From positions 2,053,501-2,117,500 of the forward strand of contig NZ_CP041091.1 in the NCBI RefSeq assembly GCF_006494815.1: 64,000 nucleotides of DNA. Reading direction: 5' to 3'. Shown here piece by piece: positions 5,839 to 61,100 of the stretch. The first letter of the stretch is position 1. Every line of letters begins with the position of its first letter. Under the pieces are notes generated by a model. The model worked only from the letters and a program-made list of their open reading frames with translations. It was not told where the DNA came from and made no database searches. The position numbers and the translations under genes were made by a program. This DNA is from Nocardioides sambongensis. Lineage in GTDB: Bacteria > Actinomycetota > Actinomycetes > Propionibacteriales > Nocardioidaceae.

Positions 5839-7337
5839 ATGCCCTGCTGGCTGGCGCGCGTCCTCGCCTGCCTGTGCGCTGCGACGGTCGCTCTGACGCT
5901 CGGTCCCCCGGCGCACGGCGCGGACCGGACGCCCGGGGCCGACGGCTCCGCCGCTGCGGGCGGGTCGACGGCACGACCCACGTTGCGCCTCGACCGCGAC
6001 TACACGCTCGAGCTGCGCGACCTGTTCATGGACCAGCCGCACCTCGGCCTCTTCGACCGGGTCCGGGCGCGCACCCTCCTGGCCCGACCGACGGCCGGCG
6101 CCCAGGATCCCGCGGGCGACGGCTACCGGCGCTCCTCGATGCGGCGCTGCGGCCCCGAGGTGTGCGTGCACGCACCGCGCCACGGGGCCGACGCGCCGCC
6201 CAGCACCGGGTGGCTGCGCCGCACCCTGCGCGTGATGAACCGGGTCTGGCGCCACGAGGTCGACACCCTGGGCTTCCGGGCGCCGCCGAGCGACGGCCGG
6301 CGCGGCGGCGACGACAGGTTCGACGTCTATCTCGCCGACGTCGGCGACCGCGGTCTGTTCGGCTACTGCACCCCCGAGCGCCTGGTCCGCGGCGAGCGCC
6401 GCTCCGCCTCGGGCTACTGCGTCCTCGACAACGACTTCGCCCGCCGGCAGTACGACGCCCCGCCGCGCCGCTCGCTGCAGGTCACCGCGGCCCACGAGTT
6501 CTTCCACGCCATCCAGTTCGGCTACGACTTCCGCGAGGACCCGTGGCTCCTGGAGAGCACGGCCGTCTGGGTCGAGGAGACCTTCGCGGACGCCGCCAAC
6601 GACAGCCGGCGCTACCTGCGCTACGGCAGCGTGCGCCGGCCCGCCGTCTCCCTGGACACGTTCTCCAACTCCGGCTACGCGCAGTACGGGAACTGGCCGT
6701 TCTGGGAGTTCCTCGGCCAGCGCTACGGGCGCGACGTCGTCCGTCGCGTCTGGGCCAGGGCCGACGCCACCGCGGGTGCCCCCGGTCAGACCTCGATCGG
6801 CGCCCTCCGCTCGGTGCTGACCCGTGCCGCCGGACCGGGCTCGCTGCGCGACGTGCTCACCGCCTACGCGGTGGCCAACCTCGACCCCGGACGCAGCTAT
6901 CCCGAGGGACGGCACTGGCCGTCCGCGGCGATCGCCCGGCACGTGGTGCTGGAGCGGGCCGGAGCGGAGCAGCGACGACACCTCACCGTCGACCACCTCG
7001 CCGCTCGGCACCTGGCGGTGCGCCCGCGGACGGACGGGGTGCCGCGCGGCGCCCGCGCCCGGCGCCTGCGCCTGGACCTCACCCTCCCCCGCAGGGCCGC
7101 GGTCGCGATCACCGTGAACCGCGACGACGGGACCCGCAGCCGCCGCGTGGTCACCGACCGGACCGCGCGCCTGGTCGTGCCCTTCGATGCGCGCACGGTC
7201 TCCTCGGTGGTGATCACCGCAGTGAACGCCTCGGCCCGCTACGACTGCTTCCAGGTCACCACCTGGGCCTGCAACGGCAAGCCGCTGGACGACCGGGCCC
7301 GGTTCGCGGTCAGGATGCGAGCCCAGCGCGGGGCTAG
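5839..7337 (+). CDS. Secreted zinc metalloprotease-like protein (MXAN_6640-type), apparent 3' frameshift
   Basis: Exported protein of about 499 residues. A Sec signal peptide is clear (MPCWLARVLACLCAATVALT, then LGPPAHGA), followed by a low-complexity linker. The zinc motif HEFFHAIQFGYDF starts at residue 219 (HExxH), with EETFADAAND about 30 residues on as a candidate third-ligand region. The sequence resembles the MXAN_6640 family of putative gluzincin-like proteases. The open frame as given runs on to 7719, about 350 bp antisense into the MFS gene. If the G-run at 7330-7333 had one more G, the frame would end at the TAG at 7335-7337, leaving a normal 30-bp gap. I prefer that end. The ATG at 5839 follows a GGAG. 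Confidence 0.75.
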
Positions 7338-7367
7338 GGCGGGGCGCCGGTCCGTGCGGCGCGCCGG

Positions 7368-8819
7368 TCAGTGCGCAGCCGGCTGGGGCCGGGACACACG
7401 ACGCGGAACGAGCGCGGCCAGCGCGACTCCGGTGAAGGCCGCCACCGCACCCACCAGGAAGCAGATCCGGAACTGCGACTCGGCGGGCACCGGGAAGCCG
7501 CCGAGGTCGACCGTGGCAGCGGTGAGGATCGCGGCCATCACGGCGGCGGAGATGCTGGTGCCCACCGACCGCATCAGGCCGTTGATCCCGACCGCCGACC
7601 CGGACTCGGTGATCGGCACGGACTCCAGGATCAAGGTGGGCATGGCGGCGTACCCGATGCCCACCCCGGCGCTGGAGATGCAGGAGACGACCATCAGCTG
7701 CCAGGGCTCCGCGCTGTAGCCGACGGCCACCAGGTAACCGCCCCCGATCACCGCCCCGCCGATCATCAGGGTGATCCGGGCGCCGAGGGCGCGGATCAGC
7801 CGGCTGGCCACCGGGGCGAACGCCATCATGGTCAGTCCGGCGGGGGCCATCCACAGGCCGGCCTGGAGGAAGGTCTGACCCAGGCCGTAGCCGGTGGCGG
7901 TGGACAGCGAGAGCAGCTGGGGCACCACGATGGCCTGCGCCATCATCCCGAAGCCGAACGCGATCGCCGAGAGGTTGGTCAGCAGCACCGGTCGCCGCAC
8001 GGAGACCCGCAGGTCGCACAGCGGATCGTCGACCCGGAGCTCGAAGACCGCCCAGAGTGCGAGCAGCAGAACCCCGCCGCTGATGGTGGCCAGCGTGCCG
8101 ACCGAGGCCCAGCCCCAGTCGTTGCCCTTGGAGACGCCGACCAGGAACGCGACGAGTCCGACGGCGAGGCCGACCGCGCCGACCAGGTCGACCCGCCCAC
8201 CGTGCGCGTCCTCGACGTGCGGCACGACGACCAGCACCGCGATCACCATCGCCACGGCGAGGGCGGCGGTCGCCCAGAAGAGCACGTGCCAGTCGAAGTC
8301 CTGCACCACCCAGGCCGCACCGGGTAGCGCGATCGCGCCGCCCACGCCGAGGGTGGCGCTCATCGCGGCGATGGCGGTGGTGGTCAGGTGCGGTGGGGTG
8401 ACCTCCCGCAGCAGCGCGATCCCGACCGGGATGAAGCCCATCGCGCAGCCCTGCAGCACCCGGCCGGCGAGCATCGGGAGCAGGGCGTCGGAGAGGGCGC
8501 ACACCACCGAGCCCGCGGCGAGGACGACGAGGGTGCCGATCAGCACCCGCTGCTTGCCGAGCAGGTCGGCCAGCCGGCCGGCGATCGGCATCGCGACCGC
8601 TCCGCCGACCAGCGAGGCGGTGACCACCCAGGAGGCGTTGGGTGCGCTGGTGTGCAGCAGCAGCGGGAGCTCGCCCTGGATCGGGATCACCAGGGTCTGG
8701 GTGACCGCGGCGGTCAGGCCACCGAGGCAGAGCACCACCACGGTCAGCCACGCACGCGCGAACTCTTCCGGCGGCGGCTCGGCCGCCCGGGAGACATCGG
8801 GGCGGGGAGCGGTGGTCAC
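7368..8819 (-). CDS. MFS drug exporter (DHA2/EmrB-QacA type)
   Basis: A 483-residue major facilitator with about 14 predicted membrane helices, placing it in the drug:H+ antiporter-2 group. The loop 2-3 signature GRLADLLGKQRVLIGTLVV is present near residues 81-99, and motif C-like glycines and prolines occur in helix 5 (LGVGGAIALPGAAWVV). The N terminus (about 20 residues) is polar and cytoplasmic. It is divergent from a TetR gene with a perfect palindrome between them, so it is probably repressed by that TetR and induced by its own substrate. The substrate cannot be inferred. Confidence 0.88.
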   Translation of the reverse strand: MTTAPRPDVSRAAEPPPEEFARAWLTVVVLCLGGLTAAVTQTLVIPIQGELPLLLHTSAPNASWVVTASLVGGAVAMPIAGRLADLLGKQRVLIGTLVVLAAGSVVCALSDALLPMLAGRVLQGCAMGFIPVGIALLREVTPPHLTTTAIAAMSATLGVGGAIALPGAAWVVQDFDWHVLFWATAALAVAMVIAVLVVVPHVEDAHGGRVDLVGAVGLAVGLVAFLVGVSKGNDWGWASVGTLATISGGVLLLALWAVFELRVDDPLCDLRVSVRRPVLLTNLSAIAFGFGMMAQAIVVPQLLSLSTATGYGLGQTFLQAGLWMAPAGLTMMAFAPVASRLIRALGARITLMIGGAVIGGGYLVAVGYSAEPWQLMVVSCISSAGVGIGYAAMPTLILESVPITESGSAVGINGLMRSVGTSISAAVMAAILTAATVDLGGFPVPAESQFRICFLVGAVAAFTGVALAALVPRRVSRPQPAAH

Positions 8820-8827
8820 CCGCGGAA

Positions 8828-8860
8828 GTCAACGTCGTTGACGCCTCGGTGTCAACGACG
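8828..8860. promoter_or_regulatory. TetR operator between MFS and TetR genes
   Basis: A perfect 15-bp palindrome, GTCAACGTCGTTGAC (8828-8842), is followed by a half-site, GTCAACGACG (8851-8860), one helical turn downstream. The palindrome sits 8 bp upstream of the MFS start codon and the half-site runs into the TetR promoter. This is the usual layout for a TetR repressor that controls itself and its neighbour. Confidence 0.75.
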
Positions 8861-8882
8861 CGGTCCCGGTGTGCGGGTGCCG

Positions 8883-8888
8883 TACGGT
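8883..8888 (+). promoter_or_regulatory. -10 box of TetR gene, leaderless (TACGGT)
   Basis: TACGGT ends 7 nt before the GTG at 8896. This argues for that GTG rather than the in-frame GTG at 8869, which lies upstream of the box. Confidence 0.6.
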
Positions 8889-8895
8889 GGCGGCT

Positions 8896-9477
8896 GTGAG
8901 CCACCCCACCGTCCCGCTGGACGAGAGCCACCTGCGGCCGGCCGGCCGGGCCACCCGAACGGCGATCGAGGAGGCCGGGCGGCACCTGTTCGGCAGCCGG
9001 ACCTACGAAGAGGTCTCGGTGCGGATGATCGCCGCCGAGGCCGGGGTCGACCCGGCGATGGTGATCCGGCACTTCGGCAGCAAGGAGGCGCTCTACCTGC
9101 GCAGCATCGATCCCTCGCTCGGCGTCGGCGAGGTGATCGAGGGCCCGGTCGAGACGCTCGGGCGCCGCCTCGTCGCCTACTTCCTCGACCAGCGCAACTC
9201 GGCGATCGGGAAGCGGCACGCGAGCCTGGTCCAGGCCTCCTACCGCCGGCAGGTGCGTGCCGAGCTCAATCGGCACACACGGGTCCGGTTCGTCGACGCG
9301 ATCGCCCCCCGGCTCGAGGGCGACGACGCCGAGCTGCGGGTCGCCCTCGCCGTCGCGCAGCTCGGCGGATTCCTCACCATGCTCTTCGTCCAGCAGGACC
9401 CGCTCGTCACCGAGGCCGACCCGGACCTGGTGACCGTCCTCTACGGCGACGGCCTGCAGCGCCTGCTGACGCCGTAG
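8896..9477 (+). CDS. TetR-family regulator of the MFS exporter
   Basis: A 193-residue TetR repressor. The N-terminal helix-turn-helix covers about residues 17-62, with AIEEAGRHLFGSRTYEEVSV leading into IAAEAGVDPAMVIRHFGSKE. The C-terminal ligand domain resembles the TetR_C group with an SVRMIAAEAGV-type HTH. The start at 8896 is fixed by the leaderless promoter. It is divergent from the MFS exporter and shares the palindromic operator at 8828-8860. It most likely releases DNA when the transported compound binds. Confidence 0.88.
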   Translation: MSHPTVPLDESHLRPAGRATRTAIEEAGRHLFGSRTYEEVSVRMIAAEAGVDPAMVIRHFGSKEALYLRSIDPSLGVGEVIEGPVETLGRRLVAYFLDQRNSAIGKRHASLVQASYRRQVRAELNRHTRVRFVDAIAPRLEGDDAELRVALAVAQLGGFLTMLFVQQDPLVTEADPDLVTVLYGDGLQRLLTP

Positions 9478-9491
9478 AGGCGTGCCGCGGC

Positions 9492-9527
9492 GCGCTGATC
9501 ACGGCCCGCCGGGGCCGTGATCAGCGC
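9492..9527. terminator. Bidirectional hairpin terminator
   Basis: A perfect 16-bp stem (9492-9507 with 9512-9527, arm GCGCTGATCACGGCCC) closes a 4-nt loop. It sits between the convergent TetR gene (stop 9477) and flavin-oxidase gene (stop 9537). There is no U-tract, which is usual for actinobacterial terminators. Confidence 0.75.
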
Positions 9528-9536
9528 CCCCGAGCG

Positions 9537-10934
9537 TCACAGACGATGAGCGGCGACCATCACCCGATCCGGATCGATCCGGTCGCGCAGGCGCCGCAAC
9601 CGCTCCAGGTCCCCCGACCCGTGCAAGCGGTTCGCCTCGGTGACGCCGTCGGCGAAGGTGGGCACCAGCCCGTCCACCGCCCACGGTTCCAGGGCACGCA
9701 GTACGGCGAAGCCCGCCGCACGCCCGGCCAGCGCCGCCTCCGGGGTCGGTGCCACCGCGACCGTGTGCAGGGCATACTCCCCCGGCAGCCTGGAGACCAC
9801 CCCGCCACCGGTGGCCGGCCGTCCCAGCGCGCCACCGAGGTGCCGCAGCTCGGTGAAGAGCAGGCCGGTGCTCGTCCCCGGTCCGACCTGGGCCAGGAAC
9901 GCCGCGACCGCGGCGTCGTCCAGTGCACCGAGGCAGGCATGGTCGCCGACCGCCGGGGTGGGCCCGGGCGGGTCCATGTGGATCCCCAGCACCACCGGCG
10001 CCGGGACCCGTGCGAACGTGTCCATCTCGGGCTCGAGCTCGCGCAGCGGCGCCAGGACGGAGTCCGCCGTCGCGTCGTCGGCCAGCACCGCTCCGTCGAT
10101 CACGACCAGGTCCCGTCCGGCCAGGAACGGCGGCAGCTCGGGCAGCGGCGGAAAGCTCATCACCCGCAGCGACGTGGTCACCGACTCCGGCGCGGTGCGA
10201 CTCCACTCGACCCAGCGACGGACCACTTTCTCCGCAAGCTCCCGGTCCCACAGCAGCATCCCGGCGACGACGTCGGGCTGGGACAGCAGGCCCAGCTCGA
10301 CGGCGACCACGACACCGAAGCTGCCGCCGCCGCCGCGCAGCGCCCAGTACAGCTCGGTGTTGCGCTCCGCATCGGCCCGGACCAGGGTGCCGTCGGGCAG
10401 CACCACCTCGATGCCGCGCACCGTGTTGGCCGCGACACCGTGCTGGCGGCCGTAGAACGACAGACCGCCACCGAGCACGTAGCCGACCACCCCGACGTCC
10501 GGCGCGCTGCCGTGCAGGGCGGTGAGCCCGTGCGGCGCCATCGCCGCCACGGCCTCGCCCCACTGGGTGCCGCCCAGCACGCGGGCGGTCCGGCGTCCGG
10601 GGTCGACGCTGACCCCGGTGAGCTCGCCGAGGCGGACCAGGACCACCCGGTCCAGGTCCTGGGCGGCGAGCGCGGCGGCGCCGTGGCCGGTGCTCTGCGG
10701 AGCGACACGCAGACCACTCGTCGCGGCGGCGGTGACCACCGCGGCGACCTCCTCGACCGTGCGCGGCACGGCGACGGCGGCGGGACGCTGGTCGGCAGCC
10801 AGGTTCCAGGCGACCCGCGCGGCGTCGTACGTCGGATCCTCGGGCAGGTGCACCGGGCAGGCGGCGCGCAGGCGGGCGGCGACGGCGGCGGGCAGCGCCG
10901 CGGTCGCCGGGGGCAGGGGTGTCTCGGTACTCAT
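9537..10934 (-). CDS. BBE-type FAD-linked oxidase (PCMH fold)
   Basis: A 465-residue flavin oxidase related to berberine bridge enzyme and 6-hydroxynicotine oxidase. The FAD PCMH domain covers about residues 45-215, with STGHGA placing a histidine (H84) where the 8-alpha-histidyl FAD link usually is. The segment HGSAPDVGVVGYVLGGGLSF (141-160) lacks the second, cysteinyl link of bicovalent members. The C terminus carries the BBE motif (ANRLHGSGDLERLRRLRDRI then DPDRV). The start is ATG 10934; upstream in-frame residues fall in the divergent promoter region. Substrate unknown. It is divergent from the LuxR gene. Confidence 0.85.
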   Translation of the reverse strand: MSTETPLPPATAALPAAVAARLRAACPVHLPEDPTYDAARVAWNLAADQRPAAVAVPRTVEEVAAVVTAAATSGLRVAPQSTGHGAAALAAQDLDRVVLVRLGELTGVSVDPGRRTARVLGGTQWGEAVAAMAPHGLTALHGSAPDVGVVGYVLGGGLSFYGRQHGVAANTVRGIEVVLPDGTLVRADAERNTELYWALRGGGGSFGVVVAVELGLLSQPDVVAGMLLWDRELAEKVVRRWVEWSRTAPESVTTSLRVMSFPPLPELPPFLAGRDLVVIDGAVLADDATADSVLAPLRELEPEMDTFARVPAPVVLGIHMDPPGPTPAVGDHACLGALDDAAVAAFLAQVGPGTSTGLLFTELRHLGGALGRPATGGGVVSRLPGEYALHTVAVAPTPEAALAGRAAGFAVLRALEPWAVDGLVPTFADGVTEANRLHGSGDLERLRRLRDRIDPDRVMVAAHRL

Positions 10935-11002
10935 GGCGACAACGCTGCGCCGGTGCCGGCCCCGGCGGTATCCCGCGGCGCCGGGGAGTCGGCGCACCCA
11001 CG

Positions 11003-11024
11003 TCTGGGGTCCGAAGAACCCAGA
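11003..11024. promoter_or_regulatory. Inverted repeat in the oxidase/LuxR intergenic region
   Basis: TCTGGG (11003-11008) and CCCAGA (11019-11024) form an inverted repeat 42 bp upstream of the LuxR start and about 70 bp upstream of the oxidase start. An overlapping CCCA/TGGG pair follows. It is a candidate site for the LuxR protein, low confidence. Confidence 0.35.
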
Positions 11025-11065
11025 AAGTTGGGATGCCCACCGGGCCACCGTGGGCGGAGACTGCG

Positions 11066-12202: not shown

Positions 12203-12313
12203 GCCGTCCGGTCCGGCCCGCGACGAGCACCGTTCCGGGTCGGACCGTGCATGGTGTCGGCGCCGCCGGTTACGTTGGCGAGGACGGGATCTCCCCCACC
12301 ACGAGGTGCACCC

Positions 12314-13630
12314 ATGTCGAACGACCTGCACGTGTCCGCCCACGCTCCCGCTGCGCCCGCCCCGCCCGGCGCCGACTGGGATCCGACCACCCTGCTCGAC
12401 CGCTACGACGCGGTCCGCGCGCACACCGAGGCGCTCGCCGCCCCGCTCTCGCCGGAGGACCAGACCGTCCAGTCGATGCCGGACGTCTCCCCCACCAAGT
12501 GGCACCGCGCCCACGTCACCTGGTTCTTCGAGACCTTCGTGCTCGCCGACAACGAGCCGGGCTTCGCCCCGTTCCAGGACAAGTACTGGTTCCTCTTCAA
12601 CAGCTACTACGAGGGCGTCGGACCGCGCTACTCCCGACCCGACCGCGGCGTGATCAGCCGGCCCGGAGCGCACGAGGTGGGCGACTACCGCCGCAACGTC
12701 GACGACCGGATGCGCGACCTGGTCACCGGTCTCGACGACGGCACGCTGACCAAGCTCGCGGACACCATCGAGCTCGGCTTCCACCACGAGCAGCAGCACC
12801 AGGAGCTGCTGCTGATGGACATCAAGCACGTGCTCTCGCGCAACCCGCTGCAACCGGTGTACGCCGGCCGTCCGAGCGCGACCAGCGTGCCGGACCGGTT
12901 GGGCTGGGTCTCCTTCGACGGCGGCCTGGTGGAGATCGGCAGCGAGGGGACGGCGTTCTGCTTCGACAACGAGCTCCCGCTGCACCAGGAGTGGCTGGCG
13001 CCGTACCGGTTGGCCGACCGGTTGGTGACCAACGGCGAGTGGATGGAGTTCATGGCCGACGGGGGCTACCGCCGCCACGAGCTCTGGCTCTCCGACGGCT
13101 GGGCGAAGGTGACCGGCGAGGGGTGGCGTGCGCCCTTCTACTGGACCGAGGTCGACGGGGTGTGGTTCGAGCACACGTTGCACGGCACCTTCCCGGTCGA
13201 CCCGGGACTCCCGGCGGCCCACGTCAGCCACTACGAGGCCGACGCCTACGCGACCTGGGCAGGGAAACGGCTGCCCACGGAGGCCGAGTGGGAGCACGCG
13301 GCGCGCACCGTCGACGGTCCGGACGGCACCGGCCGCGCCACCGGCTACCACCCGCAGGCAGCGGGCGCGGCGCACGGCGGCCTCCGCCAGATGTTCGGCG
13401 ACTGCTGGGAGTGGACCGGCTCCGCCTACCTGCCCTATCCCGGGTTCCAGCCGGCGTCCGGCGCGATCGGCGAGTACAACGGCAAGTTCATGTCCGGACA
13501 GATGGTGCTGCGGGGCGGGTGCGCGCTGACCCCACCCGGCCATGCCCGGGCGACCTACCGCAACTTCTTCCCGCCCGGCGCCCGGTGGGCGCTCTCCGGG
13601 GTGCGGCTCGCCGAGGGCGGTGCGGCATGA
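12314..13630 (+). CDS. egtB: Ergothioneine biosynthesis sulfoxide synthase EgtB
   Basis: A non-haem iron enzyme that uses O2 to couple hercynine with a thiol (gamma-glutamylcysteine or cysteine) in ergothioneine synthesis. The N-terminal DinB-like domain supplies the iron ligands: HRAHVTWFFE (H67) and the HxxxHxE motif HHEQQHQE (H158, H162). The C-terminal FGE-sulfatase/C-lectin domain includes RLPTEAEWEHAAR. Length is 438 residues, standard. It overlaps egtD by 4 bp (ATGA), so the two are translationally coupled. egtA, egtC and egtE are not adjacent. Confidence 0.94.
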   Translation: MSNDLHVSAHAPAAPAPPGADWDPTTLLDRYDAVRAHTEALAAPLSPEDQTVQSMPDVSPTKWHRAHVTWFFETFVLADNEPGFAPFQDKYWFLFNSYYEGVGPRYSRPDRGVISRPGAHEVGDYRRNVDDRMRDLVTGLDDGTLTKLADTIELGFHHEQQHQELLLMDIKHVLSRNPLQPVYAGRPSATSVPDRLGWVSFDGGLVEIGSEGTAFCFDNELPLHQEWLAPYRLADRLVTNGEWMEFMADGGYRRHELWLSDGWAKVTGEGWRAPFYWTEVDGVWFEHTLHGTFPVDPGLPAAHVSHYEADAYATWAGKRLPTEAEWEHAARTVDGPDGTGRATGYHPQAAGAAHGGLRQMFGDCWEWTGSAYLPYPGFQPASGAIGEYNGKFMSGQMVLRGGCALTPPGHARATYRNFFPPGARWALSGVRLAEGGAA

Positions 13631-14638: not shown

Positions 14639-15171
14639 TCACGCCATGCCGTAGGCCCACGGTGACCAGGTCGAGGCTCCCTCGGGCGGATCCGCACCGC
14701 GACCCAGGCACCCTCGGCGATGTCGCCGTGGCGGTCCGCGGTGCCGATGTTCATCCGGCCGTGGTGCCCGACCGTGAAGGAGTCGGTGTCGATCCGGCGG
14801 CCCGGAGTGCCGGCCGGGTCCATGTCGCGGTAGATCCGCACCTCGGCCTGGAGGCCACGGCCGTCGGAGAGCCGGTCCTCCAGGACCAGCTCCTCCCCGT
14901 AGGAGTGGAACCGGGCGTAGTGGGTGACCTGGTCGAAGTCGTCGTCCCAGCGCATGATCAGCGCGCCGGAGCCATCGTCGGCGACCGACCCGACATAGCT
15001 GGTGACCGAGTACGGCGACGGCTCGGCCCCGTCGACCGAGCCGTCGCGGTCGCCACCGGGTTGCGCTGAGGCGACCCCCGGGAGGAGCAGAGCGGCCATC
15101 CCGGCCGCCGCCGCGCCCGCGCCCGCCGATCGACGGGCCCGCGGGCCCCGGCTCGTGGTGGTCTCGCTCAT
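14639..15171 (-). CDS. Hypothetical secreted protein, apparent frameshift near its C terminus
   Basis: An exported protein of about 177 residues that I do not recognise. The N terminus is a Tat-like or Sec signal: ARRSAGAGAAAAGMAALLLP then GVASAQPGG; RRS without the full twin-arginine consensus makes Tat uncertain. The mature part is polar with Tyr, His and Asp (for example VTHYARFHSYGEEL). The frame breaks at the G-run 14684-14686: adding one base restores a frame ending in SPWAYGMA with a stop at 14639. Without repair the frame would run antisense through egtD to 13555, which is implausible. It is divergent from the CGNR regulator. Confidence 0.6.
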
Positions 15172-15977: not shown

Positions 15978-16891
15978 TCACGGCGTGGTGGCGGCTCGCA
16001 GGGCCGAACGCTCCCGGCCGAGGAAGTCCCGCACCAGGGGCGCGTCCGGCCGCACACCGTCGGCACCGTGGTACATCCCGGGCACCACGTCGAGGGTCAC
16101 CGGCACACCGGCCGCACGCAGCCGCTCGGCGTAGGCCACACACTCGCCGTGGAAGAGGTCGGCGTCGCCCACGCCGATCCAGGCCGCCGGCAGACCGGCG
16201 AGGTCGTCCATCCGACCCGGCGCCGCATAGCGCGGCGGGGGCGGGGGAACGGGTCCGTGTCGCCGCGACGCCCCAGGTAGCACTCCCAGGCGTAGCGGTT
16301 GGAGCGGGCCGACCAGACGTAGTGCCGTCCCCGCCGCGCCGGCCGCGTCCGGTCGTCCAGCATCGGGTAGCGCAGCGCCTGGAAGCAGATCCGGTGCTCG
16401 CCGCGGTCCCGGACCAACTGGCACAGCGCGGCCGCCAGGCCGGCCCCGGCGCTGGCACCGGCCACCGCGATCCGGTCCGGGTCGACGCCGAGGCCGGCGC
16501 TGCGTCGTACCAGGTCGTCGAGGGCGGCGTAGGCGTCCTCCAGGCCCGCCGGGAACGGGTGCTCCGGGGCGAGCCGGTAGTCGACCGCCACCACGACCGC
16601 GTCGAGTCGACCCGCCAGGTCCTGCACGAAGCCGCGATCCGCCTCGGCGCTGCCGGCGACGTGGCCACCCCCGTGAAACCAGAGCACCGCGCCCGACGGG
16701 GTGGCACGACCCGGTGGCACCACCTCGACGTGCTCGCCGGTGCCACCGACCGCGGTGCGGCGGCGCAGCAGCTGCAGTGTGCGCGGGCCGGAGAGGTCGA
16801 ACGGCGTCAGCAGCCACGGCGACCGCAGCTGGGTGGGGGTGCGCCGATAGGCGGCCAGGATCTGCGGTGCCACCCGAGGCATCCGCGTCAC
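15978..16891 (-). CDS. Alpha/beta hydrolase of the HSL (GDSAG) esterase family, apparent frameshift
   Basis: A carboxylesterase of about 304 residues. The oxyanion-hole motif HGGGH and nucleophile elbow GASAG lie in the upstream frame; the acid (GVGDADLFHGE) and histidine (PGMYHGAD) lie in the downstream frame. All catalytic residues are therefore present but split by a break at the G-run 16243-16247. Adding one G gives a continuous protein reading through PPPPPRYAAPG. The GTG start at 16889-16891 overlaps the TetR stop (GTGA), so the two genes are coupled. It is a possible ester or lactone hydrolase controlled by that TetR. Confidence 0.78.
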
Positions 16892-32138: not shown

Positions 32139-33202
32139 GTGAGCGCAGCACCCTCCTCCGCCGACCAGCCGTCCGCCCCGCCCACCGTCCAGCCCGACAC
32201 CCAGGCCAACACCCAGCCCGACACCCAGCCGCCGACCCGGCCCACCGACGGCGCCGAGCACGGCACCGTGCTCCTGGTGCCGCCGCTCAGTCCGGCGCTG
32301 GCGGCCGCGGTCGAGGCGTCGTACCGGACCGTGCGCTGGCCGGAGCAGGGACGTGACGAGCTGCTCGCCGAGCACGCCGCGGAGATCACCGCGATCGTGT
32401 GCACCAACGGCGGCCGGATCCCAGCCGAGCTGATCGAGTCGTTGCCCCGGCTCGGCATCGTCGCCAACCACGGCGTCGGCTACGACAACGTCGACCTGGC
32501 GACGGCACTCCCCCGAGGCGTCCAGGTCACCCACACACCGGACGTGCTGGACGACGCGGTCGCCGAGACCGCGCTCGCCCTGCTGCTGGCCGTGCGCCGC
32601 CAGGTCGTCGCCGCGGACCGCTTCGTGCGCGCCGGCCGCTGGCCCGACGGTCCCTTCCCGCTGACCGACCAGATCGCCGGCAGCACCGTCGGCATCCTCG
32701 GCATGGGTCGGATCGGGCGCGCCGTGGCCACCCGCCTGGAGGCGTTCGGGGCGGCCGTGCGCTACCACAACCGCCGCGAGATCCCGGGCACCCGCTACCC
32801 CTACGCCGCCTCGGTGACCGAGCTCGCGGCGGCGGTGGACTCGCTGATCGTGGTGGTGCCCGGCGGCCCGTCCACCGCAGGCCTGGTCGACGCCGAGGTG
32901 CTCGAGGCGCTCGGCCCCGAGGGCGTGCTGATCAACATCGCGCGGGGTCGGTGGTCGACGAGGACGCCCTGGTCTCCGCGCTCGAGAGCGGCCGGATCCG
33001 AGGGGCCGGACTCGACGTCTACCGCAACGAGCCGCACGTGCCGGCGGCCCTCACCGGCCGCGACGACGTGGTACTGCTCCCCCACGTCGCGTCGGGCACC
33101 CGCGTCACCCGGGCCGCGATGGAACGACTCACCCTGGACAACCTGGACGCCTGGATGCAGGGACGGCCGCTGCTCACCCCGATCCCGGAGCTGCGGGACT
33201 GA
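32139..33202 (+). CDS. D-2-hydroxyacid dehydrogenase, apparent frameshift
   Basis: NAD(P)-dependent D-isomer dehydrogenase of about 354 residues. A Pro/Thr/Gln-rich leader of about 40 residues precedes the fold. The cofactor motif GMGRIG starts at residue 188. Catalytic Arg lies in INIARG; Glu (GLDVYRNEP) and His (LLPHVASGT) lie downstream. The frame breaks just after INIARG, at the G-run 32944-32947. One added G restores ARGSVVDEDALVSALE and a stop at 33202. All catalytic residues are present after repair. It is probably a glyoxylate/hydroxypyruvate-reductase-like enzyme. Confidence 0.82.
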
Positions 33203-33733: not shown

Positions 33734-34206
33734 GGGGCCGACCCCGCGGGTCGGACCAGCCGCGCCGGACCCGGATCCTCCAGCGGCTCGCGGCGCAGCA
33801 GCCGGTTCACCAGTCCGGCGACCACGGCATCGAGTCCGACGACCTGGCGGCGTGCCACGTCCAGGCTGCGCCCGGCGAGGGTGCCGGTGGTCTCGGCGAC
33901 GATGTCGGGGATGCCGGCGCGGCGCACCACCGACTCCAGGTCGACGTCGGCGAGCAGCGCCTCGATGTCGGCGCGGGCGAGCAGCCGGTCGACGTCGATC
34001 CGGTCCAGCAGGCGGTTCGGGTCGATCCGGTCCAGCAGCCGGTTGGCGTCCACCCGGTCGAGCAGGTGGTTCACGTCGACGTGGTCGAGCAGGGCGTCGA
34101 CGTCCACGTGGTCCAGGATCACCTCCGGCGGCACCGCGTCCACCACGCGACCGGTCACCGCGCCGACGGCGCGGCCGAGGAAGCCCGGCGGGTTCTCGTT
34201 GCTCAC
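33730..34206 (-). CDS. Nonapeptide-repeat protein upstream of RDD gene
   Basis: A 158-residue soluble protein of unknown function. Its core is about eight consecutive nine-residue units (residues 30-101) of the form L-L-D-[RH]-[VI]-D-x-[ND]-x; for example LLDHVDVNH, LLDRVDANR, LLDRIDPNR and LLDRIDVDR. The strict spacing of Leu-Leu and Val/Ile-Asp suggests a regular solenoid or amphipathic helix array. The N terminus (FLGRAVGAVTGRVVDAVPPE) is short; a basic C-terminal region follows the repeats. It starts with GTG at 34206 and is coupled to the RDD gene. Confidence 0.75.
   Translation of the reverse strand: MSNENPPGFLGRAVGAVTGRVVDAVPPEVILDHVDVDALLDHVDVNHLLDRVDANRLLDRIDPNRLLDRIDVDRLLARADIEALLADVDLESVVRRAGIPDIVAETTGTLAGRSLDVARRQVVGLDAVVAGLVNRLLRREPLEDPGPARLVRPAGSAP
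33904..34119 (-). repeat. Coding 27-bp tandem repeats (eight units)
   Basis: These are the DNA units encoding the nonapeptide array. The middle copies are closest to each other and the outer ones have drifted, the usual pattern of expansion by internal duplication followed by divergence. Confidence 0.7.
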
Positions 34207-35792: not shown

Positions 35793-36088
35793 TCAGGAGC
35801 CGTAGACCAGGTCGGCGTAGTCGGGGTGCCGCTCGATCCAGGACTTGATGAACGGGCACAGCGGCATCACGGCCCGGTCCCCCGCCGACCGGACGTCGTC
35901 CAGCGCGGCGCGGGCCAGAGCGCCACCGACGCCCTTGCCCTCGTACGCCGGATCGACCTCGGTGTGGGTGAAGACGATCAGGTCCTTGGCCAGCTGGTAC
36001 TCGGCGAACCCGGCCAGCTCCCCGCCCAGGTGAGCCTCGTAGCGGGAGCGCTCGGGGGCGTGGGTGACCTCGGGGTGGCGTCGCTCAT
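35793..36088 (-). CDS. Small GNAT-type acetyltransferase (YjdJ/COG2388-like), apparent frameshift
   Basis: A short acetyltransferase-fold protein of about 98 residues. The given frame is broken near the N terminus at the G-run 36072-36075. Adding one base joins the ATG at 36086-36088 to MSDATPEVTHAPERSRYEAH and a conserved body: FTHTEVDPAYEGKGVGGALA (acetyl-CoA pyrophosphate-binding loop) and MPLCPFIKSWIERHPDY. Those last residues are typical of the YjdJ group. The ATG overlaps the AI-2E stop (ATGA), making it the last gene of a four-gene operon. Confidence 0.75.
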
Positions 36089-45022: not shown

Positions 45023-45791
45023 CCGGCCCGGGCGCGACGCCGCCGGGGCCGCTGGAGGTCCACCGCGAGGGCCCCGTGCTGGTGATGACACTGAACCGGC
45101 CGGCCAAGCGGAACGCGCTGAACCAGGAGCTCAGCGACGCCCTCTCGGCGGCGCTGGACCGGCTCGACGACGATCCGTCGCTGCACGTCGGTGTGATCGC
45201 CGGCAACGGGCCGGTGTTCTGTGCCGGCACCGATCTCACCTCGATGTCGGGGCCGCGCACCGACCGGGGCGGTGAGTACGGGCTGATCCGGCGCACCCGG
45301 GCGACCCCGTTGATCGCCGCGGTCGACGGCCCGGCACTCGGCGGCGGCTTCGAGCTGGTGCTCGCCTGCGACCTGGTGGTCGCGAGCGAGGCCGCCCGGT
45401 TCGGGCTCCCCGAGGTGGCGCGGGGCCTGGTGCCGACCTGCGCCGGGCTCTTCCGGGCTCCGGACCGGCTGCCGGCCAACCTGGCCACCGAGCTCGCCCT
45501 CACCGGCGACCCGATCGGGGCAGCCCGCGCCCACCAGGTGGGTCTGGTCAACGTGCTCACCGAGCCGGGGGCCGCGCGCGAGGGCGCACTGGCCCTGGCG
45601 GCCCGGATCGACCGGAACTCGCCGGACACGGTCAGCGCCTCGCTGCGCGCGGTGCACGACGCCCGGGGTCCCGCGGAGGCGGTGGGCTGGACCGCGACCG
45701 AGCTCGCGATCGGTCGGATGCAGGCCTCCCGGACGCGCGCGAGGGCGTCACCGCGTTCTTCGAGCGACGGCCGCCACGCTGGTCGCGCTGA
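45019..45791 (+). CDS. Enoyl-CoA hydratase/isomerase family protein, apparent 3' frameshift
   Basis: A crotonase-fold protein of about 257 residues. The oxyanion-hole segments CAGTDLTSM and GPALGGGFELVLACD are present. RFGLPEVARGLVPTCAGLFR covers the usual catalytic loop. The frame breaks near the end at the C-run 45728-45730: adding one C yields DAREGVTAFFERRPPRW and a stop at 45789-45791, a standard crotonase tail. Unrepaired, the frame runs antisense into the antiporter gene. It is coupled to the nitroreductase (GTGA overlap). Confidence 0.82.
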
Positions 45792-47488: not shown

Positions 47489-49704
47489 TCAGGGCGTCGG
47501 CAGGTCCAGGCGCAGGAACCGGGGACGGTAGAGCAGGGGGTTGCGCAGCACCTTGCCGAAGTCGGTGCTGTTGCGGCTGTAGGAGACGATCACCGACCCC
47601 GGCTCCGGGAACAGGTCGGGATGCGCGAGGGGCATGTAGCGCAGCTGGCCCGTCTGGCCGTCGGTGGGCAGCTGGGCCGAGGGCGGCTGCGCGACGTACG
47701 GACCGGTGGGCTCGGGCGCGGTCCAGAAGACCAGGTCGGTGCCGAGCACCTCGTTGCGCTTGCTGAACGCATACCAGGTCGCCCCGCGACGGAAGACGCT
47801 CAGCGTCTGGGAGACGCCGTCGGCCGCGCCGATCAGCTCGACGGCCTCCTCCGAGCCCCGCACCCATGCGGTGCCGTCCCAGTACCGCCAGCGGCCGGGG
47901 CGGGTCGCGTCGTCGGTCCGCATCCGCGCGACCCGCATCGAGAAGCCGGAGACGGGCTCCGCGTCCGCGGCGCGGGCGGTGCCGTAGGCGTAGAGCCAGC
48001 CTCCGTCCCGCACGCTCGCCGCGCCCCACATGGGCCGCGTGGTGTCGGGGTCGTCCTCGCCCAGGTCGGTCACCGAGAGCAGCTGCGGCGTCTTCCCCAC
48101 CGGTACGACGAACCGCGCCACCGCCGGCCCCAGGATGGTGAACCCGAAGACGTCCTCGGACTCCCCCGAGCGCGTGCGCTGGGCGAAGACGGTGACCAGG
48201 TCGTAGCCGGGCCGGGTGGTGACGGTCAGCGACATCGGCCAGTAGCCCACGTCGCCACGATCCGGGATCAGCGCGCCACCGTCCTCGGGGAGCACCACCT
48301 GCAGGCAGTCCTCGGCGACGACGAGCATCGAGTTGCGCACCAGCGTCTGGCCACCGCCGGGCGTCGCCCGGATGGTGTCCCCGAAGAGCCACACCCGCCG
48401 CCCGTCCTGGAGCAGCGCGTCGGCGCCGACGTCCCCGCCCTGGAACTCGGGCGACCCGCGCAGCCTGGTGACCCGGTTGAGGTCCTCGGCCCCGGAGATC
48501 TCCCCGGTCGCGGTGCACTCCGTGCTCGCCGCCAGGCTGGGCAGGGCCTGCGGGGTCCGGTCGGGGGTCGGCATCAGCAGCAGCACGCCGCCGGCGAGGA
48601 CCACCGCCAGCACGGCCCCCGTGCCGATCCCCCGGCGCCACCGTGCCGGCACGGTCGGGGCGGTCGCAGTCGGGGCGGTCGGGGCGGGGGCCGGCGCCTG
48701 GCCCGCGCGGCGCTCCCGCACCAGCGCGACGCGCGCCAGGGCCAGCACGACGAGGGCGAGGAGCACGCCGGCGAGGAGGGCGACCAGCGGCACCACCGCG
48801 CTGGGATCGCCCGCGGCCACGCCGGCGACCGCGTCGATCGTCGCACCGACGGTGGTCCACGGGACCACCGCGGCCGGCAGGCCGCCGAGCAGGCTGGAGC
48901 CACCGGCGAGCAGCAGCGGCAGCGGCAGCACCAGCAGCACCAGCGCCGCCACGGCGAGCCCGTGCAGGCGCAGCAGCGCCTCGAGGGCGACCGTGGTCAC
49001 CGCCGCGCTGAAGCAGGACACCCCGAGCACCACGGACGCGGCGACCGGAGCGGCGACGTCCCCGGAAGGTCGCAGGGCGGGTGCGCTGAGGGCCGCGACC
49101 GTGACCAGTGCACCGAGCCCGGCCGCGGCGGCGATGCGGACCAGGCCCCGGCCGAGGCTGCGCGGCACCGGCCCCAGATCAGGGAGATCGCCACGGCCAG
49201 CAGGTAGCCCGCCAGAACCGAGAGGCCCGCCGCCCAGAGCAGGGCCCGATCCGGCGGGGTCCGTCCGGGCACCTCCTGCACCGTCGGGGTCCGGCCATAG
49301 CGCTGCTCGACCGCGGTCACGTCCGCGACCAGCGCGTCCCGCACTCGCGGGTGCAGGTCGTCCCGGATCAGGAGCTCGTCCTCGGTGGTCCGCAGGTCCA
49401 GGACCAGCGCGCCGATCACCCGCCCCTCGGCCACCTCGGTCCGCGCCTCGTCGCTGTCGGTGATCCCCGTCCCGATGTCCAGGTGGCCCTCGACGAGCTC
49501 GGCGCCGGCGACCAGCGGGCCGGTCACGACGTCCGGTCCCACCAACAGCACCGGCGCGTCGTGCGGCGTGCCTCCCCAACCCTGGACCACCGCCGGAGCG
49601 AACAGCGCGAGCGACGCGGCGGCGGTGGCGAGCCACGCCAGCGTCCTGCGCCGCACGGAGCCCACGGCGCGGCCGCTCGCCGGTCGAGCCGCGGTGCGGG
49701 TCAT
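47489..49704 (-). CDS. Membrane (ABC-2/YhgE-like) domain fused to beta-propeller-like domain, apparent frameshift
   Basis: A protein of about 738 residues. An N-terminal membrane region (one helix, a periplasmic segment of about 130 residues, then five or six helices to about 390) resembles YhgE/ABC-2 permease proteins lacking an ATPase. The C-terminal half (about 430-738) looks like a DUF4185/DUF5005-type five-bladed propeller, with VWLFGDTIRATPGG and GWLYAYGTAR repeats. The frame breaks inside the membrane part at the C-run 49172-49175; one added base joins LISLIWG to PVPRSLGRG. I do not recognise a function; surface glycan binding or hydrolysis is possible. Confidence 0.68.
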
Positions 49705-53624: not shown

Positions 53625-53649
53625 GTCGTTGCCGGGCCGACCCCGGGGG

Positions 53650-54428: not shown

Positions 54429-54436
54429 GGCCGGTC

Positions 54437-54442
54437 AGCGTA
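54437..54442 (-). promoter_or_regulatory. -10 box of second SHOCT gene
   Basis: The box reads TACGCT on the minus strand, 8 nt before the ATG at 54426-54428. It resembles, with slight drift, the promoter of its paralogue. Confidence 0.45.
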
Positions 54443-54578
54443 GACCCTCCCGGCGCTCGCGGAGCGAGGACCGATCGGCGAGGCGGGATCTGGACGTCGA
54501 AGTGGACCGCCGGCCACCCACGGTGCCACGATCGTCCCCGACCTTCCAGGCAGTTCCAGCGCAACCGAGAGGCAGTCG

Positions 54579-55010: not shown

Positions 55011-55048
55011 GAACCCGGGCAACCGGCATCGCGAAGGAAAGAGGATCC

Positions 55049-55384
55049 ATGATGCGTAGGCGAATCGGCCGACCCGGCCTGATCGGGACGATGGCGCGGA
55101 CCGCCGTGATCAGTGGCACCGCCACCGCGGTGTCCGGTGGCGTGCAGCGCCGGCAGTACCAGCGGGCGGCCAACCGTCAGGCGGAGCAGCAGGTCCAGTA
55201 CGCGGCACCGCCGCAGGCCGCCCCGACCCCGCAGCCGGCGGCCCCCCAGCCGACCGCCGCGGCAGCGGCCGGCGGCGCCGAGGACCGGATCGCACAGATC
55301 CGCGAGCTCGGCGAGCTCAAGGCGCAGGGGCTGCTCACCGACGAGGAGTTCGCCGCGGAGAAGGCGCGCATCCTCGGCGCCTGA
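55049..55384 (+). CDS. SHOCT-domain protein (third in window)
   Basis: A 111-residue protein. The N-terminal segment TMARTAVISGTATAVSGGVQ may be a membrane or amphipathic helix; the middle is rich in Ala, Pro and Gln; the SHOCT domain is at the C terminus (IRELGELKAQGLLTDEEFAA). It is not a close paralogue of the other two SHOCT proteins. The ATG at 55049 follows AAAGAGG; ATG 55052 is an alternative. Confidence 0.8.
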   Translation: MMRRRIGRPGLIGTMARTAVISGTATAVSGGVQRRQYQRAANRQAEQQVQYAAPPQAAPTPQPAAPQPTAAAAAGGAEDRIAQIRELGELKAQGLLTDEEFAAEKARILGA

Positions 55385-55393
55385 CGGCCCGCG

Positions 55394-55439
55394 GTACGAC
55401 GAGGCCCACCAGACGAACGTCCGGTGGGCCTCGTCGTAC
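55394..55439. terminator. Bidirectional hairpin terminator
   Basis: GTACGACGAGGCCCACC (55394-55410) pairs perfectly with 55423-55439 around a 12-nt loop. It separates the convergent SHOCT and catalase genes. Confidence 0.85.
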
Positions 55440-55457
55440 GCGAAGGGGTTTCGGCGG

Positions 55458-56987
55458 TCAGGCCTTGTCCTGCATGGAGGAGCGCGCAGGGTTGCCCTGC
55501 TCCCCCGCCTTGGGGTCCTTCTCGTCCGCCTTCGCCCGGACGCCGTCCTCGACCCGCTTGCCGAGGTCGGTGTCGACGTTGCGCCAGTACTCGAAGGCGC
55601 GCACCAGCACCTTCTCGCTCACCCCGTTGAGCAGGTGCCCGACGATGTTGTCGACCAGTCGGTCACGGGCCGCGTCGTCCAGCACCTCCCGCACCAGGGT
55701 CCCCGCCTGCCCCCAGTCGTCGTCGGCCTCACGCAGGGTGTACGCCGTCCGCACCATCTCGCCGTCGGCCGCCCAACGGCCCCCGTCGTCGGTCCGCGCC
55801 GGGTCGGCCGCGGGACCGCCGTAGGAGTTGGGCGCGTAGACCGGTCCGGTCGCGTTGCGCACCCGCATCGCGCCGTCCTTCGAATAGCTGTGCACCGGTG
55901 ACTTCGGCTCGTTGACCGGGATCTGGCGATAGTTGCCGCCCAACCGGGCGCGGTGCGCGTCGGAGTAGCTGAACCCACGGGCGAGCAGCATCTTGTCCGG
56001 GGACAGCCCGGTGCCGGGGACCAGGTTGTTGGGCTCGAACGCCGCTTGCTCGATCTCGGTGTGATAGTCGGTCACGTTCCGGTTCAGGGTCATCCGGCCG
56101 ACCTCGTGCAGCGGGTAGTCGTCGTGGGGCCAGACCTTGGTGAGGTCGAACGGGTTGTACCGGTAGGTCTTGGCGTCCTCGAAGGGCATGATCTGCACCT
56201 TCAGGGTCCACGACGGGAACTCTCCGGCCTCGATGTGCTCGAAGAGGTCGCGCTGGTGGTAGTCGGTGTCGGCCGAGGCCATCTGGTCGGCCTCGTCCTG
56301 GGTGAAGCACTCGACGCCCTGGTCGGTCTTGAAGTGGTACTTGACCCAGAACACCTCGCCGGCCGCGTTGATCCAGGAGTAGGTGTGGCTGGAGTACCCG
56401 TTCATGTGGCGCCAGCTGCGCGGGATGCCACGGTCCCCCATCAACCAGGTGACCTGGTGCGCCGACTCCGGCACCAGCGTCCAGAAGTCCCACTGCATGT
56501 CGTGGTCGCGCAGGTTGTTGTCCAGGCGCCGCTTCTGGGAGCGGATGAAGTGCTGGAACTTCATCGGGTCCCGCATGAAGAAGACCGGGGTGTTGTTGCC
56601 GACGAGGTCCAGGTTGCCCTCCTCGGTGTAGAACTTCAGCGCGAAGCCGCGCGGGTCGCGCCAGGTGTCCGGGCTACCGCGCTCACCCGCCACGGTGGAG
56701 AAGCGGGCCAGCATCTCGGTCCTCCGGCCGGGCTGGAACACGTCGGCCCGGGTATAGGCGGAGACGTCGCCGGTCACCTCGAACTCACCGAACGCACCAC
56801 CACCCTTGGCGTGCGGCTGCCGCTCGGGGATCCGCTCGCGGTTGAACTGCGCCATCTGCTCGATCAGGTAGTGGTCCTGGAGCAGCAGCGGGCCGTCGGG
56901 TCCCACCGACAGCGAGTACTCGTCACTGGCAACGGGATTGCCGGCGTCGTTCGTGGTCGCGGGGCGTGCCCCGGCGTCGTCGTTCAT
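55458..56987 (-). CDS. Haem catalase (clade 3, small subunit)
   Basis: A 509-residue catalase that breaks down H2O2. The distal His is in [20 protein letters not shown] (H59), Asn in the [11 protein letters not shown] region, and the proximal haem Tyr in [12 protein letters not shown] (Y341). Length and the short C terminus fit a small-subunit clade 3 enzyme. The ATG at 56987 follows GGAAGGA. The C-terminal 30 residues are charged. No oxyR/furA gene is adjacent; the neighbouring LysR (57140) is divergent from putA rather than linked to catalase. Confidence 0.94.
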
Positions 56988-57139
56988 CACGGTCCTTCCT
57001 CGCCCGCGCGGTGCTCGCGCGGGCACGCAGATACGAGGAGTCGGTACCCACCGGTCCGTGGGCTATGACCCCAACCTGCTGCCGGCGCGGTCGTAATTCA
57101 AGGGCGCCCCTGCTGCGGGCTCCCTCGACCGGTACGCCG

Positions 57140-58039
57140 TCAGCGTGGCGCGCGCGCCGCGTGGGCCAGTGCCTCGCGGCAGGCGGCGACGCCGGGGCTC
57201 GCCCCGGAGGAGAGTCGTGCCGAGGTGAAGATCGACCGCTGCGGAGCGTCCGGCAGGGCGCACAGCCGTGCCGGGGCGGGCAGGCCCTTCCACAGGATGT
57301 CGGGCAGCAGGGCGACCGCGTGCCCGGACTGCACCAGGCGCAGGTGGGCCTGCAGGTCGGCGGTCTCGAACCGGACGTCGGGCTCGAAGCCGGCCCGGCG
57401 ACAGGTCTGCTCGGCGAAGTGACGGGAGGCCGCCCCGACCGGCTCCATCACCCACGGGACGTCCGCCGCGTCCTCGATGGTCCGGATGTGGGCGTGGTCG
57501 GCACCCTGCGCGGCGACCGCGAGCCACAGGCTGTCGGTGGTGAGCGGCACCCGATCCAGGCCGGGGTGGCGCGGCGACGCGTGGTGCGGATACTCCTCGG
57601 CGACCACGAGGTCGAAGTCGCGGGCCCAGGTCTCGGCCAGCGCCGTCTCCGGCTCGCGCTGCACGACGGTGACCCGCAGCTGTGGGTGCTCGTCGCGGAG
57701 CCAGGTGAGGGCGGCCGGCAGCAGGGCCAGCGCGGCGGACTGGAAGACGGCCACGCGCAACGAGCCGGACGGCGTGGCCAGCGAGGCGGCGACCTCCTCC
57801 TCGGCACGTTCCAGCCCGGCCAGGACGTGCTCAGCGTGCCGCACCAGGATCTCGGCCTGCGGGGTCAGCCTCACACCGCGACCGGCCTTGATCAGCAGCG
57901 GGACACCGGCCTCGCGTTCGAGCTGGGTGAGCTGCTGGGAGACCGACGATGGACTCTGGTGCAGCGCCTCGGCCACCCTGGCCAGGGTGCCCCGTACGGC
58001 CAGCTCGCGGAGCAGCCGCAGTCGTCGTACGTCCAGCAA
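57140..58039 (-). CDS. LysR-family regulator, probably of putA
   Basis: A 299-residue LysR protein with HTH at about residues 3-60 (LRLLRELAVRGTLARVAEAL and HQSPSSVSQQLTQLEREAGV). The effector domain follows from about 85. The start is a TTG (58037-58039) preceded by GGGGAGGGGA, giving the family-typical MLDVRRLRLL; an ATG at 58066 in the same frame is an alternative. It is divergent from putA, so it probably activates proline catabolism. The gene is downstream of, and on the same strand as, a 152-bp gap before catalase. Confidence 0.87.
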   Translation of the reverse strand: MLDVRRLRLLRELAVRGTLARVAEALHQSPSSVSQQLTQLEREAGVPLLIKAGRGVRLTPQAEILVRHAEHVLAGLERAEEEVAASLATPSGSLRVAVFQSAALALLPAALTWLRDEHPQLRVTVVQREPETALAETWARDFDLVVAEEYPHHASPRHPGLDRVPLTTDSLWLAVAAQGADHAHIRTIEDAADVPWVMEPVGAASRHFAEQTCRRAGFEPDVRFETADLQAHLRLVQSGHAVALLPDILWKGLPAPARLCALPDAPQRSIFTSARLSSGASPGVAACREALAHAARAPR

Positions 58040-58076
58040 GACGGCTCCCCTCCCCATCCGATCCATCAGGAGATGC

Positions 58077-58100
58077 GATGAATCAGCATCAGCAATCATC
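58077..58100. promoter_or_regulatory. Dyad in the LysR/putA intergenic region
   Basis: GATGA (58077-58081) and TCATC (58096-58100) flank a low-GC core. The region (58040-58167) is noticeably AT-richer than its neighbours. It is a candidate LysR box. Confidence 0.4.
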
Positions 58101-58167
58101 ACTTTACCTGACGACAACCGGCGGATCAGACTGACGGGATCACCCCCTCCCGGAAGTGGATCCGCCC

Positions 58168-61100
58168 GTGACGACGTCCTCCCTCCCGACCGACCTGCAC
58201 GACCCGGCGCTCACCGACGAGGTCGAAGCCCTGGTCCGGCAGTGGCTCGCCACCGCGGCCGAGGTGCCGGCCGACAGCTCGGCCGAACAGCTCGCCGGCG
58301 TGCTCAAGGACCCGGCCGGCCTACCGTTCGCCGTCGGCTTCGTCGACGGCGTGATCCGGCCCGAGGATCCACGCGTGGCGGCGCAGGCCTTCGCCGAGCT
58401 CGCCGAGGACCTCCCCCGCTTCCTGGCCTGGCACCTCCGGACGGCGGTCAAGGTCGGCGCACTGGCGGCGAGGATCGCGCCCGGGCTGGTCATCCCGGTG
58501 GTCCGCCGGGTGCTGCGCCGGATGGTGGGGCACCTGGTGGTCGACGCATCCGACCGGCGGTTGGGACGCTCGATCGCCCGCATCCGGCGTACCGGCGTGC
58601 GGTTGAACGTCAACCTCCTCGGCGAGGCCGTCCTCGGCGAGGGCGAGGCCACCCGGCGGCTCGAGGGCACCCACCGCCTGCTCGCCCGCGACGACGTCGA
58701 CTACGTGTCCATCAAGGTCTCCTCGACCGTGGCACCGCACTCGCCCTGGGCGTTCGAGGCCACGGTGGCCCACGTCGTCGAGCAGCTGCGGCCGCTCTAC
58801 CTGCGCGCGGCACGGTCCCCCTCCCGGAAGTTCATCAACCTCGACATGGAGGAGTACCGCGACCTCGACCTGACCGTGGCCGTCTTCACCCGCCTGCTCG
58901 ACGAGCCGGAGCTGCAGGACCTCGAGGCCGGCATCGTGCTCCAGGCCTATCTGCCCGACACCCTCGCCACCATGCAGCACCTGCAGGAGTGGGCCGCGGA
59001 CCGTCGCGCCCGGGGTGGCGCCGGCATCAAGGTCCGCCTGGTCAAGGGCGCGAACCTGCCGATGGAGTCGGTCGAGGCCGCCGTGCGCGACTGGCCGCTG
59101 GCCACCTGGGGCAGCAAGCAGGACACCGACACCCACTACAAGCGGATCCTCGACTACGCGCTGCACCCGGACCGGGTGGCCAACGTCCGGCTCGGGGTCG
59201 CGGGCCACAACCTCTTCGACGTCGCCTTCGCCTGGCTCCTGGCCGGCCGCCGCGGCGTCCGGGACGGCGTCGACTTCGAGATGCTGCTCGGGATGGCCCA
59301 GGGCCAGGCCGAGGCGGTACGACGCACCGTCGGCGACCTGCTCCTCTACACGCCGGTCGTCCGGGCCACGGAGTTCGACACCGCGATCGCCTACCTGGTG
59401 CGCCGGCTCGAGGAGGGCGCCAGCCAGGAGAACTTCATGTCGGCGGTCTTCGACCTGGGCAGCGACGAGAGCCTCTTCGCCCGGGAGCGCGAGCGTTTCC
59501 TGGCCTCCTTGCACGCCGTCGACCCCGCCGTGCCGCATCCGAACCGCACCCAGGACCGTCGTACCGATGCGGTGCCGGTGCCCGGCAACGGATTCGTGAA
59601 CACCCCCGACACCGACCCCGCACTGCCGGGCAACCGCGACTGGGCCGCCGACATCCTGCGGCGTGCCGCGGACAGCGCGCTCGGCGCGGACCTGGTCGAG
59701 GAGCACACGGTGAGCTCGCCGGAGGCGCTGGAGCAGGTCGTGGTGAGCGCTGTCGCCGCCCAGCCCGGATGGGCCGAGCGTGGCGGCACGGGCCGCGCCG
59801 CAGTGCTCCGGCGTGCCGCCGCCGAGCTCGAACGGCGCCGCGGCGACCTGGTCGAGGTGATGGCGGCGGAGTGCGGGAAGACCCTCGACCAGGCCGACCC
59901 GGAGGTCTCCGAGGCGATCGACTTCGCGCGGTACTACGCCCGCTCGGCCGAGCGGCTGGAGCAGACCGACGGCGCCCGTCCGGTCCCGGTCGGCCTGACC
60001 GTGGTGACCCCGCCCTGGAACTTCCCGGTGGCGATCCCGGCCGGGTCGATGCTGGCGGCGCTCGCAGCGGGCTCGTCGGTCGTGGTCAAGCCCGCGCCAC
60101 AGGCCCAGCGCTGCGGGTCGGTGGTGGTCGAGGCGCTGTGGGCGGCCGGTGTGCCGCGCGAGGTGCTGCACCTGGCGCACGTCGAGGAGTCCGATCTCGG
60201 ACGGGGACTGGTCTCCGACCCCCGGGTCGACCGGTTGATCCTCACCGGGGCGTTCGAGACGGCCGAGCTCTTCCGCAGCTTCCGACCCGACCTCCCCCTG
60301 CTCGCCGAGACCAGCGGCAAGAACGCCATCGTGGTCACTCCCAGCGCGGACCTCGACCTCGCGGCCAAGGACGTCGTCGCCTCCGCGTTCGGCCACGCGG
60401 GCCAGAAGTGCTCGGCCGCGTCACTGGCGATCCTGGTCGGGCCGGTGGCGACCTCCCGTCGGTTCCGCGACCAGCTGGCGGACGCCGTCCGGTCGCTCCG
60501 GGTCGGCTACCCCACGGACCCGACCAGCCAGGTCGGCCCGGTCATCGAGCCGGCCCGGGGCAAGCTGCTGGAGGCGCTGACCACCTTGGACGAGGGCGAG
60601 TCCTGGCTGGTGGAGCCGACCCCCTCGACGACACCGGGCGGCTCTGGTCCCCCGGGGTCAAGCTGGGCGTCGCCCCCGACTCCCGGACCCACCTGACCGA
60701 GTTCTTCGGGCCGGTCCTCGGGATCATGACGGCCGAGACGCTCGACGAGGCGATCGCCCTGCAGAACGCGCCGGCCTACGGCCTCACCGCGGGCATCCAC
60801 TCCCTCGACGCCGACGAGATCGCCGCCTGGGTGGACCGCGTGCAGGCGGGCAACCTCTACGTCAACCGCGGGATCACCGGCGCGATCGTGCAGCGGCAGC
60901 CGTTCGGCGGCTGGAAGCGGTCCGCCGTCGGCGCCGGCACCAAGGCCGGCGGGCCCAGCTACCTGCACGGTCTGGTCGACTGGGAGCCGATCGAAGCCCG
61001 GGAGGGCGACGAGTTGCTCCCGCCCAGCGTCCGTTCCTCGAGTCCGCCACGGCGACCGATCTCCCGGCCGACGATGTGGCCCGGCTCGAACGGGCGCTGC

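Follow-up and report, generated by a model that had tools for sequence, protein, structure and literature searches.

The window, i.e., the entire 64-kb stretch of DNA that was analysed, lies in a Nocardioides genome of 4,434,294 bases in one contig, with a completeness of 99.98% and a contamination of 0.37%. Its G+C content is about 72%. Ten short G/C runs in nine of its genes had been predicted to lack one base each, and all ten runs are present at their predicted coordinates. The sites are as follows, including a possible eleventh that is absent from the original prediction:

7330..7333, plus strand: metalloprotease-like gene, GGGG at its 3' end; one base apparently missing and the stop codon thereby removed, judged by homologue ends
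14684..14686, minus strand: GGG in a secreted-protein gene; apparent one-base deletion, seen against one relative (G153, 48% identity)
16237..16275, minus strand: esterase / hormone-sensitive-lipase-like gene; one-base deletion amid G/C runs, seen against the G020 ortholog
32944..32947, plus strand: GGGG in a D-2-hydroxyacid dehydrogenase gene; one-base deletion, seen against six of six relatives with an ortholog
33754..33761, minus strand: RDD-family membrane protein gene; possible eleventh site, seen against G048
36072..36075, minus strand: small GNAT gene, GGGG a few codons into the reading frame; one base apparently deleted, judged by the frame of the start codon
44002..44005, minus strand: CCCC in a TetR-like gene; one-base deletion, seen against one relative (G146, 52% identity)
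45728..45730, plus strand: enoyl-CoA hydratase gene, CCC close to its 3' end; one-base deletion, seen against the G020 ortholog with the looser filter only
49172..49175, minus strand: CCCC in a large membrane protein gene; one-base deletion, seen against the G020 ortholog (accepted site 49172)
60620..60624, plus strand: CCCCC, first deletion in putA; nine of nine aligned loci, placed at 60620-60623
61023..61025, plus strand: CCC, second deletion in putA; nine of nine aligned loci, loosely positioned at 60991-61036

Proteins of relatives were compared with the DNA by frameshift-tolerant alignment. This comparison, which the original prediction had proposed as a check, placed a one-base loss at eight of the ten sites; for the GNAT start and the metalloprotease stop the loss was judged from the positions at which homologues start or end. 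At several of the ten sites the frame also changes, on the same strand, in a coding-frame model of the window.

The dehydrogenase is divided within its Pfam domain 2-Hacid_dh_C, with model positions 1-130 in one frame and 129-178 in the next. In putA the Pfam domain Aldedh is split over two frames (25-322 and 333-452). Two of the nine putA loci, L012 and L053, give identical alignments and are probably one genome, and behind the second site the residues match poorly (6-14 of 25). An extra putA event near 58074-58185, found in five of the nine loci with poor matching, was taken to lie upstream of the gene. The single relatives available for the secreted protein and the TetR-like protein place the deletions at 14687 and 44012, respectively. 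In the esterase gene a deletion had been predicted at 16243-16247. The G020 ortholog supports the deletion, and its exact place is ambiguous between about 16237 and 16275: the accepted site is 16269, and the HMM changes frame at 16212-16246. In the enoyl-CoA hydratase 21 of 30 and 17 of 20 residues are identical to G020 on the two sides of the break, and the PF00378 match ends at position 208 of 251. The strict filter missed this site because few residues remain after the break. Elsewhere on the contig two genes of the enoyl-CoA hydratase family (G000:C1:1003032-1003767 and 2135782-2136521) have PF00378 split into two adjoining out-of-frame pieces, as expected if breaks occur genome-wide.

In the GNAT gene no shift was flagged by the aligner in nine of nine loci, one of which (L246) was uninformative, the picked ORF lying in another frame. 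The relatives start about 5-10 residues ahead of the shared part, and the sole nearby ATG (about 36087) is offset by one base from the frame of the conserved residues. We infer the break because the ATG which matches the start of the relatives is thus out of frame. For the metalloprotease the aligner found no shift within the aligned part. Its homologues end at 7314-7329, with 1-9 residues left, in the five informative loci of nine; in L235-L237 the ORFs chosen by shared words lay in other frames and were uninformative. The reading frame of the window continues to 7719, past these homologue ends, and by this measure the gene seems to have lost just its stop codon. The RDD-family site is a weak candidate for an additional break. 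It was accepted with G048, the aligned G020 gave no event, and the longest run at this place is two. In the ORF list the HMM frame changes at 13623, 25260, 27946 and 45018 have the look of ordinary gene overlaps.

The breaks are not peculiar to the window. In a first coding-frame scan the 64-kb window contributed 6 junctions, its 160-kb flanks 16 and 400 kb from other parts of the genome 41, with 60 of the 63 being deletions. Extended to 844 kb, i.e., 19% of the genome, the strict scan yielded 82 frameshift-like junctions or about 10 per 100 kb, of which 78 are deletions and four look like insertions; a random stretch (L156) which overlapped the continuous block was excluded. Junction counts are Poisson-like: 19 separate 20-kb stretches have a mean of 2.16 and a variance of 2.03. 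Among the 78 deletions 57 are tightly placed, and for 36 of these a G/C run of at least four lies no more than 8 bases away (8.8 expected). CCCC, CCCCG, GCCCC and similar k-mers are enriched at the junctions, with no sign of a separate motif in this enrichment. In the window the strict scan caught 5 of the 11 sites and made one false call; it misses about half. The false call, junction 37809, can be read as two genes that overlap stop to start and was rejected as a break; the scan therefore carries some background. From about 10 junctions per 100 kb and the sensitivity of the scan, a rough extrapolation suggests some 400 to 850 such errors in the whole genome. The original prediction had described a problem of nine genes within the window. 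Its conclusion holds, but the losses occur throughout the sampled regions and not in these nine genes only.

The breaks were also counted by homology. Alignments passed in 290 of 424 cases in a first run and numbered 296 in the filtered run; a first pairing of frames by tblastn was abandoned as too noisy for counting. The final filter demanded that both flanks agree with the coding model and was applied alike in both directions. The covered coding sequence, 252,977 bp, holds 22 sites supported both by homology and by coding frame, and all 22 are deletions (p ~5e-7 at equal odds of gain and loss). The reverse control, i.e., proteins of the window's genome aligned to G020, gave 1 insertion in 249,831 bp. 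This one-directional contrast depends on the coding-frame filter, which eliminated every insertion: the aligner itself had produced 173 raw events here and 142 in the reverse direction, and under a looser filter 114 clusters remained, 72 of them deletions and 42 insertions. The share of the window in the latter was 21 (13 insertions, 8 deletions). By their coordinates many of these looser events look like shadow ORFs or like ORFs that extend upstream of the true start, and they were set aside. The strict filter in turn loses real sites near gene ends, such as 45728, and genes for which the stretches fetched from relatives contained no counterpart; for putA a separate test was made. Two accepted sites, -205362 and -203614, may be spurious, since their support comes from ORFs of a single relative that overlap each other.

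The losses follow the length of the runs. A G/C run of at least three lies in 17 of the 22 placement intervals against 7.0 expected, and a run of at least four in 12 against 1.7, the expectations being those of random coding stretches of the same width; for runs of at least four none of 3,000 random draws reached the observed value. The longest run which touches the interval is five in nine sites, four in nine, three in two and two in two. The implied loss rises with the true run length from 2 of 1,513 runs of four (~0.1%) to 9 of 353 runs of five (~2.5%) and 9 of 30 runs of six (~30%), shares which are as rough as the site placements. Two arguments of the original prediction count for little in a sequence of about 72% G+C. 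That no correction needs a change in an A/T run would be expected in any case: the covered coding sequence has 5 A/T runs of at least four versus 1,876 G/C runs. Likewise, the location in G/C runs carries little weight where the run is only three, since a G/C run of at least three is found within 8 bases of 53% of random positions.

Can these be real lesions? Gene decay would mean that numerous one-base deletions, produced by slippage, had become fixed in the strain, as in a repair-deficient lineage or under relaxed selection. Slippage, too, rises with run length, and all accepted lesions are one-base losses as slippage would have it. Against this stands the identity of the broken genes. NCBIfam names were sought for the relatives' proteins at 19 of the 22 sites, and these matches include IF-2, murF, dapB, pyruvate kinase and the small subunit of glutamate synthase. 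In the window's genome IF-2 is distributed over two frames (model positions 8-219 and 218-584), as are murF (1-240 and 238-417) and dapB (up to 229, then 228-270). No other match to IF-2, murF or dapB reached the family cut-off in this genome. Cells that lack IF-2 or MurF cannot live. With all three genes split in their sole copies a cell would hardly be viable, and decay should spare such copies. Of 11 distinct relatives (12 handles, of which G056 and G161 are one genome) 10 have an intact IF-2 gene; only in G023 is it split. Further, broken genes are conserved as much as others (0.75 versus 0.74 identity), and all 22 lesions go in the same direction. The 22 sites are found in 22 ORFs of relatives, two of which overlap; putA has two sites. 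In 296 alignments 0 in-frame stops were encountered, a weak test as both the aligner and the coding model avoid stops. Taken together, we regard decay as highly improbable.

Broken essential genes could be reconciled with a living cell if programmed or slippery decoding, or transcriptional slippage, read through the shifts and the genes were functional as given. The enrichment of CCCCG and GCCCC at the sites would suit such recoding. Yet the same genes are single-frame in relatives, i.e., the shift is not conserved. In addition, the 9 accepted sites at runs of four and the 9 at runs of five compare with 1,511 and 344 assembled G/C runs of these lengths in the covered coding sequence; the G/C run itself is no recoding signal because assembled runs far outnumber accepted sites. 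Recoding thus appears even less credible than decay. Its consequence, correct bases in a Nocardioides which rescues hundreds of shifted genes including IF-2 by a one-base gain at short G/C runs, strains belief to the same degree.

Relatives served as controls for the frame scan, with the codon table trained on each group plus the window's genome. Most comparison sets yield 0 to 2.5 junctions per 100 kb. The nearest relative, G020, has 2 in 180 kb; in 80 kb each G001 has 1, G012 0, G013 2 and G039 2, and four named loci have 1 in 90 kb. Twenty-nine short loci gave 7 in 128.9 kb (5.4 per 100 kb), 2 of which are from G023. Calls at this low level in most relatives, and junction 37809 in the window itself, are what ordinary overlapping neighbours would produce if some frame changes were effects of gene boundaries. 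At eight of the ten sites, on the other hand, single proteins of relatives span the site with a shift. For these eight gene boundaries are excluded; they account for the background rate alone, and as an explanation of the breaks their probability is negligible. Spectra of run lengths differ little from those of the relatives, and the shift to be expected is small.

G023, a single-contig assembly of the same genus, departs from the other controls. It has 16 junctions in 80 kb, i.e., 20 per 100 kb, comprising 10 deletions and 6 insertions, and both its IF-2 and its putA are split. Probably G023 is another unpolished assembly with a different error profile.

Judged from the sequence comparisons, the breaks are almost certainly due to homopolymer undercalling in an unpolished assembly, a result about data quality and not about biology. 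Reads that undercount G/C homopolymers would have left an assembly which was not fully polished; now and then a G/C run would be one base short and the frame of the gene shifted. The chromosome would then carry the missing bases, and the sequencing platform would be of the long-read or flow type. This reading is favoured because the same losses at G/C runs recur wherever the chromosome was sampled and because indispensable genes are split. In the sampled part the excess of losses over gains, their placement in runs, the dependence on run length, the even spread, the blindness to gene function and the near absence of breaks from most relatives agree with undercalling, as the original prediction had proposed it. 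Undercalling accounts for nearly everything observed, the exceptions being a few sites whose runs are short and a small number of apparent insertions.

There are precedents. Uncorrected errors of nanopore assemblies are chiefly frame-shifting homopolymer indels according to the Homopolish report (PMC8011154). There, as here, homopolymer indels shift frames and inflate pseudogene counts, and sequences of relatives reveal them; in contrast, the platform was known there whereas here the breaks are judged from sequence alone. In the long-read assembly Pss508 deletion errors were commonest after runs of four to five, and annotated pseudogenes dropped from 23.3% before to 5.6% after correction, as stated in the Kastor report (PMC12007338). 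The peak of gene-fragmenting deletions after runs of four to five is shared with the present genome. The base is different: A/T runs were most affected in Pss508, whereas the base composition of the present genome makes almost every long run a G/C run.

The breaks have no biological significance. For curation they mean that a genome scored as 99.98% complete may hold several hundred false breaks, essential genes included, and that pseudogene counts, gene-loss calls and metabolic models built on the window's genome or on G023 would mislead. An assembly can be tested cheaply, and without reads, by the number of frame breaks in its sole-copy essential genes. At its end (61729-64000, minus strand) the window contains the 5S and part of the 23S rRNA gene, which explains the lower G+C content and the absent coding signal in this part.
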